Assembly (NCBI GenBank): GCA_029253585.1
Contig: JAQWZF010000026.1
Location: 186,001 to 250,000, forward strand
From: Gammaproteobacteria bacterium
GTDB taxonomy: Bacteria > Pseudomonadota > Gammaproteobacteria > Pseudomonadales > Pseudohongiellaceae
DNA: 64,000 nucleotides
Direction of reading: 5' to 3'
The translations under genes were made by a program, and so were the position numbers. This document shows, one piece after another, positions 5,124-5,804 of this stretch (its first letter is position 1; every line of letters starts with the position of its first letter). Below the pieces are notes generated by a model. The model did no database searches. It had not been told where the DNA came from and saw nothing but the letters and a program-made list of their open reading frames with translations.

Positions 5124-5333
5124 TTAGAGAATCGCTGCCAGCATGACGGCGTGATAGGCAGGAAACCCCCACACAAATTTCTGGTAACGGGAATTATCAG
5201 CAAGCTCTCCAAACTCGTTCCAGCTCTTTGCCATCAGCATCTTGGGATTTCTGTGTAGATAGTAGAAGGCGGAGGCCGATGATATGCCGACCATTGCACC
5301 CACATAGCTCTGATCAATAGATATATGCAGCAT
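5124..5333 (-). CDS. Small membrane protein, candidate bacteriocin immunity protein
   Basis: The 69-residue frame begins at the ATG at 5333. It has two hydrophobic stretches, about residues 9-26 (SYVGAMVGISSASAFYYL) and 52-69 (FVWGFPAYHAVMLAAIL), joined by a polar loop (KSWNEFGELADNSRYQK), which suggests two membrane segments. The gene lies 85 bases downstream of the bacteriocin-like precursor on the same strand. Small two-helix proteins in this position are often immunity factors for class II bacteriocins, so that role is inferred from context. The open frame extends upstream to 5492 and overlaps the precursor, but the extra part is low-complexity and looks non-coding. Upstream signals are weak (GGGGGA about 14 bases before the ATG). 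Confidence 0.5.
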   Translation of the reverse strand: MLHISIDQSYVGAMVGISSASAFYYLHRNPKMLMAKSWNEFGELADNSRYQKFVWGFPAYHAVMLAAIL

Positions 5334-5418: not shown

Positions 5419-5637
5419 TTAGGATAGATAGTCATAGAGTGCAGAGCCTGCCATATAACCCGCGCCGAAAGAGGCGCCGACCAGTGCGCCACCCAGACCG
5501 CCTCGGGTCGCTCCGCTCATCGTGTTCGTCACTAGTGCGCCTGCAATCGAACCGATTGCTCCGCCGTCGGCAGCGAATTCGCCTAGTGAGCTTCCACCAC
5601 TAACCTGCTCTATTTCATTGATAGTGAGTTCTCTCAT
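5419..5637 (-). CDS. Double-glycine leader peptide, class II bacteriocin/microcin-like precursor
   Basis: The 72-residue peptide starts at the ATG at 5637, seven bases after a perfect GGAGGT ribosome site; an upstream frame to 5721 is not needed. Residues 1-15 (MRELTINEIEQVSGG) are a textbook double-glycine leader, cut by C39-peptidase ABC exporters. The predicted 57-residue mature peptide has no cysteine and contains 14 glycines. Seven G-x3-G pairs (for example mature positions 10/14/18, 27/31/35/39/43 and 45/49) suggest helix-helix packing in a membrane, as in two-peptide bacteriocins and class II microcins. No dedicated exporter gene is present in the window, so processing would need one elsewhere. 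Antibacterial activity is inferred; a signalling peptide is an alternative. Confidence 0.75.
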   Translation of the reverse strand: MRELTINEIEQVSGGSSLGEFAADGGAIGSIAGALVTNTMSGATRGGLGGALVGASFGAGYMAGSALYDYLS

Positions 5638-5804
5638 TTGTGACCTCCAAACTAAGTAAGAATAGTATTCCCAAAAACTCAGGAACAATCTAAGACTAGC
5701 CTGGTTTTCGTGAAGAGCCAAAAATTGAGAAATTAAATCAGCGCTACTGTATCCATACCTATCGAGCAGGAATAGTTTACAACGGGTTTACAGGCCAAGT
5801 GAGG

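Follow-up and report, generated by a model that had tools for sequence, protein, structure and literature searches.

Class II microcins are described as having a double-glycine leader of 15–18 residues with hydrophobic residues at positions -4, -7, and -12, a glycine content of 12–26%, and an encoding gene near that of a C39 exporter (PCAT) (PMC11494933). Microcin immunity proteins are reported to be cognate, encoded close by, and usually equipped with transmembrane helices (PMC9746304). In pneumococcus, blp strains without functional BlpAB, referred to as 'cheaters', have been reported to keep their bacteriocin and immunity genes (PMC4739721, PMC12150690), and the substitution of ComAB for BlpAB has also been published (PMC12150690). 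Moreover, the Nap peptides of Neisseria, which share features with microcins, are reported to act in autolysis and not in the killing of competitors (PMC11798529).

In the present study, a peptide locus was analysed that is best explained as a toxin/immunity cassette of class II microcin-like type that became stranded when its exporter was lost and is now decaying (probability about 0.8), with toxicity and immunity as predicted functions. The window, i.e., the whole 64-kb stretch of DNA that was analysed (G000:C32:186001-250000), belongs to a genome of 3.35 Mb in 42 contigs (G000) that is 94% complete. Analysis of the window confirmed the 72-aa double-glycine precursor proposed by the initial annotation, with its strong ribosome site, its 15-residue leader, and its Cys-free mature part of 57 residues containing seven G-x3-G pairs (Table 1). 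The ribosome site, TTTGGAGGT, has its last base 5 nt ahead of the precursor ATG. The leader carries V at -4, I at -7, and L at -12, and 14 of the 57 mature residues are glycine (24.6%), so that leader and glycine content both agree with those described for class II microcins; the net charge of the mature peptide is -2. Shuffles of the same residues contained 3.0 G-x3-G pairs on average, and at least seven pairs occurred in 0.7% of 20,000 shuffles. Structure prediction gave two helices or a hairpin at low confidence (mean pLDDT 59, pTM 0.24). The N-terminal MRELT was invariant in all 17 aligned family sequences, supporting the ATG at 5637 as the start. A longer TTG-started frame (5419-5721) is also present; as the homologues align from the ATG, a chance ORF and a part of a longer protein, including the unrelated protein considered in the initial annotation, were rejected. 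Upstream of the gene, a block around CTTAGATTATTCCT is common to ten aligned upstream regions of the family; no match to the sigma-70 consensus was found at this block, and the promoter and terminator scan returned none.

Table 1. Positions of the features at the precursor locus, numbered within the window.
Feature	Position	Strand	Remark
Precursor gene	5419..5637	(-)	72 codons plus stop; homologues in 23/84 genomes of the genus
Double-glycine leader, 15 residues, MRELTINEIEQVSGG	5593..5637	(-)	Predicted cleavage after GG
Predicted mature peptide, 57 residues, glycine zipper	5422..5592	(-)	Low-confidence two-helix model
Ribosome-binding site GGAGGT	5643..5648	(-)	Read from the sequence
Upstream block CTTAGATTGTTCCT	5681..5694	(-)	Common to the other 9 aligned upstream regions; putative promoter or other regulatory element
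Broken immunity-like gene, of which a 69-aa ORF is left, with helix 1 and five C-terminal residues missing	5124..5333	(-)	
Site of ~66-bp deletion (helix 1) relative to the sister species G039	5322..5332	(-)	Length from alignment block coordinates
TAA stop (TAT in G039), five C-terminal residues lost	5124..5126	(-)	

In database searches, the window peptide scored 19 bits against PF10439 (Bacteriocin_IIc; 22.3 bits in the genome search; cut-off 27.1) and 16.3 bits against PF17508 (MccV; curated cut-off 27), and nothing in NCBIfam exceeded its cut-off. The best match among PDB sequence profiles had an E of 0.053, and plasmid searches with the peptide and with one immunity-like protein gave no match. 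A glycine-zipper outer-membrane protein was considered and rejected, since the zipper models matched the window peptide at E 0.0089 or worse and would leave the leader unexplained. That the window peptide lies below every curated Pfam cut-off, and that some family members (L059, L065, and L066) lack a clean GG, speaks against the best reading. Scanned singly at E <= 0.01, 7 of the 17 family members matched PF10439 (best 1.8e-5) and 7 of the 17 matched MccV (best 1.3e-4).

A family profile (A2) built from the 17 homologues, window copy included, detected the family in 23 of the 84 genomes of the genus, 22 of them at E <= 2.1e-20, together with the sister species G039, in which a contig end truncates the gene. 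Weaker matches (3.6e-8 to 6.5e-4) in eight further genomes among the 84 were taken for other double-glycine peptides. Outside the genus, the profile matched G379 (3.1e-15) and G380 (3.4e-6) at E <= 1e-5 among 390 genomes of the order. In G379, which belongs to another family of the order, the double-glycine peptide (L165:1471-1719) shares the core LTNTMRGA..GG..GAALG and is followed 3' by a different small membrane-type ORF of 121 aa. Positions M1-T5, E8, V12, G29, G33, G42, G47, and G54 were invariant in the alignment of the 17 sequences. Comparisons of the window copy with its relatives yielded dN/dS values of 0.07–0.17 in seven of the eight printed pairs, the eighth being saturated, and these values are rough because pS was 0.67–0.75 throughout; compared with G039, six synonymous and one non-synonymous differences were counted in the 26 available codons. 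Such low dN/dS would speak against a long-dead relic. Among the 22 peptide loci of relatives, some of which are cut by contig ends, nine had both neighbours of the window locus (glutathione transferase and PLP enzyme), five had one, and eight had neither.

The initial annotation had also suggested a comparison with class IIb models. Two-peptide (class IIb) bacteriocins consist of two different peptides that share one immunity gene. A pattern-and-RBS scan for other double-glycine peptides, a search suggested by the initial annotation, returned the precursor gene alone in the window, and the family profile and PF10439 (E up to 1) matched the precursor locus alone in the whole of G000. A tandem duplication of the peptide/immunity-like cassette was observed in G017 (L056:159-1423), with two slightly different copies. 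As the window holds one peptide, and as each of the two copies in G017 has its own immunity-like gene, a class IIb assignment is not supported.

Downstream of 15 of the 17 peptide copies, an open frame encodes a membrane protein of ~95 aa; in the window and in G035, this frame is broken. The profile of this immunity-like family (A1) matched at 23 places in 22 of the 84 genus genomes, each at most 90 nt behind a peptide gene, and no A1 match lay away from a peptide gene in these 84 genomes; G118 was the sole peptide-bearing genome among the 23 to lack a match. Among the 390 genomes of the order, A1 was found in four, all of the same genus as the window species. Comparison with Pfam gave no credible match for the family (four different families, each with one of the 16 members, best E 0.0062), and with the immunity-like protein neither the PDB sequence search (E <= 1) nor the fold search with its model (E <= 0.001) returned a hit. 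AlphaFold2 predicted long helices at residues 3–27, 32–49, and 77–94 (mean pLDDT 72, pTM 0.59). An adjacent gene with predicted helices thus accompanies the peptide in 22 of the 23 genomes of the family, and its position, size, and helices match the microcin immunity proteins described in PMC9746304, suggesting that the product may protect the producer. This frame is intact in the sister species G039 and broken in the window by the lesions given in Table 1. In G035 (L118, C15:22024-22308), a TAG interrupts the immunity-like gene, yet the exporter is present, so the gene can break without exporter loss.

Genes for C39 domains were detected in 38 of the 84 genus genomes, i.e., in 16 of the 23 genomes with the peptide family vs 22 of the 61 without it (Fisher p = 0.007, with species that are not independent). 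When the comparison was restricted to the 48 genomes that are at least 90% complete, the counts were 11 of 15 vs 17 of 33, which is not significant (p = 0.21). The exporter sites were compared in 15 of the 16 genomes with both peptide and C39 (G106 was left out). All 15 sites encoded a C39-ABC protein together with an HlyD-like protein, beside the gcvP (glycine cleavage) and/or Xaa-Pro peptidase gene, and in all 15 the exporter was unlinked to the peptide gene, with distances on shared contigs of ~198 kb (G011), 215 kb (G012), and 264 kb (G013). Pfam confirmed the C39, ABC membrane, ATPase, and HlyD domains at the exporter locus of G039. The Cys and Asp motifs were present in all 12 exporters picked by pattern (16 loci given), and HWDTDHFVVL, the catalytic His region, was seen by eye in two exporters. 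The microcin-like reading is therefore supported by the leader anatomy, the glycine content, the conserved downstream gene, and the C39/HlyD exporter in 16 of the 23 genomes.

Several further observations concern these exporters. A weakly lipid A acyltransferase-like protein (PF03279, below cut-off) adjoins HlyD in G039 (L082:10402-11373), and 14 of the 16 clustered exporter loci have such an acyltransferase-like protein beside HlyD. G044 has the exporter at the conserved site and no member of the peptide family. Multiple C39 matches were obtained in G021 (8), G057 (6), G119 (6), and G104 (4), all without a strong peptide-family match, and G046 (L083) has two adjacent large ABC exporters; these five genomes may hold further, undescribed double-glycine peptide systems.

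The initial annotation had stated that no C39 exporter stands beside the precursor, and this holds for the whole of G000, in which PF03412 (C39) matched nothing; 8 of 14 control genomes gave a match with this model. With the G039 exporter as query, the ABC proteins of G000 were matched beyond residue ~170 alone, never over the C39 domain. The reason is the deletion of the exporter site. This site lies inside a 344-kb contig, and an assembly gap was thus rejected for G000. Two collinear blocks, one of 5,465 columns at 93.6% identity and the other of 4,267 columns at 96.1%, touch in G000 (L095 6981/6982 = C28:324,980/324,981) and lie 7,271 bp apart in G039, indicating a clean deletion. Through it, the cl7 membrane protein lost its residues 1–151 and a MAPEG protein almost its entire length, and cl2 (without a Pfam hit), the C39-ABC exporter, HlyD, the lipid A acyltransferase-like protein (weak PF03279 match of 15.3 bits against a cut-off of 22.3), and a YbjQ protein were removed. 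Six of the relatives are metagenome-assembled genomes and the genome of the window may be one too, which would suit an artefact of assembly or binning behind both the exporter deletion and the broken immunity-like gene; given that ~19 kb separate the junction, with its collinear flanks, from the closer end of the contig, that three separate lesions (exporter site, helix 1, and C-terminal stop) fall in one pathway, and that the exporter sites of seven other genomes are truncated at different breakpoints, such an artefact is highly improbable.

The absence of any C39 exporter from the genome formed one part of what the initial annotation had named as counting against its proposal, and this part was found, with the site deleted. 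Consequently, its assignment to class II bacteriocins or microcins is retained in the sense that leader, glycine content, partner gene, and the exporter of relatives fit it, whereas the precursor in the window looks like a stranded relic and not like part of a working system. A stand-in exporter in the window species is possible, though none was seen in G000, and another exporter could sit in the missing ~6% of this genome. Continued function through another transporter, or through a C39 exporter in the unassembled part, in the manner of ComAB for BlpAB, would accord with the intact precursor, ribosome site, and upstream block; we nevertheless consider it unlikely, both for the lack of a C39 match in G000 and because a producer would not be expected to tolerate a broken immunity-like gene.

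Comparison of the exporter site was extended to 12 C39-less genomes, six with the peptide (G003, G023, G059, G102, G116, and G118) and six chosen without it that are at least 93% complete (G027, G047, G050, G105, G110, and G113). Truncated leftovers were found at the site in 7 of the 12, with differing breakpoints. The leftover of cl7 starts at residue 222 in G003, 217 in G059, and 267 in G050; cl7 from residue 114 and an acyltransferase-like piece are left in G023, cl2 and YbjQ pieces in G102, and a YbjQ piece in G118, and in G113 an HlyD-like piece abuts a cl7 piece, with the ABC gene absent. As for the others, the contig ends at the exporter site in G116, so an assembly gap is possible there; G110 and G027 have a cl2-like gene alone, G105 has a distant cl7-like piece, and G047 has no exporter-side leftover. 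A tree of 27 genomes, built from up to four proteins flanking the site (G102 was left out for too little sequence), paired G000 with the exporter-bearing G039, G118 with G035, and G113 with G012, each with support of at least 0.99. These pairings and the differing leftovers point to separate exporter losses, and a gain of the exporter by the other genomes is unlikely because leftovers remain. Both the peptide and the immunity-like frames were open in four of the seven truncated-site genomes (G003, G059, G102, and G023), although the earliest ATG, GTG, or TTG in the latter frame of G023 falls within helix 1. In G118, the immunity-like gene is absent, and the peptide (67 aa) is altered and shortened at its end.

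These patterns allow a tentative reading, held well short of even odds, in which the exporter was lost repeatedly in the genus (eight truncated sites) and the peptide, often with its immunity-like gene, is kept under selection without export, either by non-producing but immune competitors or through a second role of the unexported peptide in the cell. Quite unlikely, in our view, is a peptide that is no exported toxin at all and has been retained because it serves within the cell, in the cell's own membrane, or as a signal: the open frame in the exporter-less G000, G003, G023, G059, and G102, the low dN/dS, and the precedent of the Nap peptides (PMC11798529) would agree with it, but the classical double-glycine leader, a partner gene found exclusively behind the peptide, and the link to C39 suit an exported peptide better.

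Under the preferred reading of a stranded microcin-like cassette, the precursor would in exporter-bearing relatives be translated and cleaved after GG by the C39 domain, and then exported via the dedicated C39-ABC protein, HlyD, and an outer-membrane channel, the exporter genes occupying a fixed position on the chromosome far from the peptide gene. The glycine-zipper helical hairpin, as suggested by the low-confidence model, may insert into the membrane of a competitor, and the neighbouring protein would protect the producer. In the window species, a single 7.3-kb deletion took out the exporter, which would be expected to have ended maturation and export. Without its exporter, the intact precursor is probably no longer matured or secreted, and for a non-producer the subsequent breakage of the immunity-like gene would carry little cost, which is the order of losses that we infer for the window species; the presence of the exporter in G035 despite the TAG in its immunity-like gene speaks against so simple an order. 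The precursor of the window is thus probably a stranded, decaying relic or belongs to a recent non-producer.

The loci compared here make up a natural series in which a toxin system of uncultured bacteria falls apart, from the complete system through stages with the exporter gone, with the exporter and the immunity-like gene gone, and with both gone and the peptide altered. Because the exporter has a fixed chromosomal site, its loss is readable in any relative, so that the pneumococcal producer/cheater question becomes testable in a Gram-negative lineage. In addition, the analysis offers a peptide family with low Pfam scores and an immunity-like family that no Pfam model matches credibly; microcin searches limited to exporter neighbourhoods would miss such systems. 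No report of the peptide family, or of such exporter losses in a related lineage, was found in the open-licence literature.

In comparison with known systems, the locus resembles the microcin V type (PF17508; also PF10439) in its double-glycine leader, its Gly-rich mature part, the adjacent small membrane immunity-like gene, and the C39-ABC and HlyD exporter of its relatives, and it differs in that the exporter is unlinked and, in the window genome, deleted, and that the peptide is Cys-free and below the Pfam cut-offs. Judged from its sequence, the system would work like a class II microcin, with likeness and not membership claimed here, as the exporter is absent from G000 and distant in relatives and the activity is a predicted one. 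The Nap peptides are likewise Gram-negative double-glycine peptides with microcin features, but they are described as cationic, with a C39 peptidase and a FapF-like channel in the same island (PMC11798529), unlike the window peptide with its negative charge. The nearest precedent found is that of the blp cheaters, in which, as here, the exporter is lost and the peptide gene remains. In the cheaters, a frameshift is reported in the exporter gene, which belongs to the linked blp locus, and ComAB can take over its role (PMC4739721, PMC12150690), whereas the window species has lost a distant operon, for which no substitute was found, and its immunity-like gene is broken as well.
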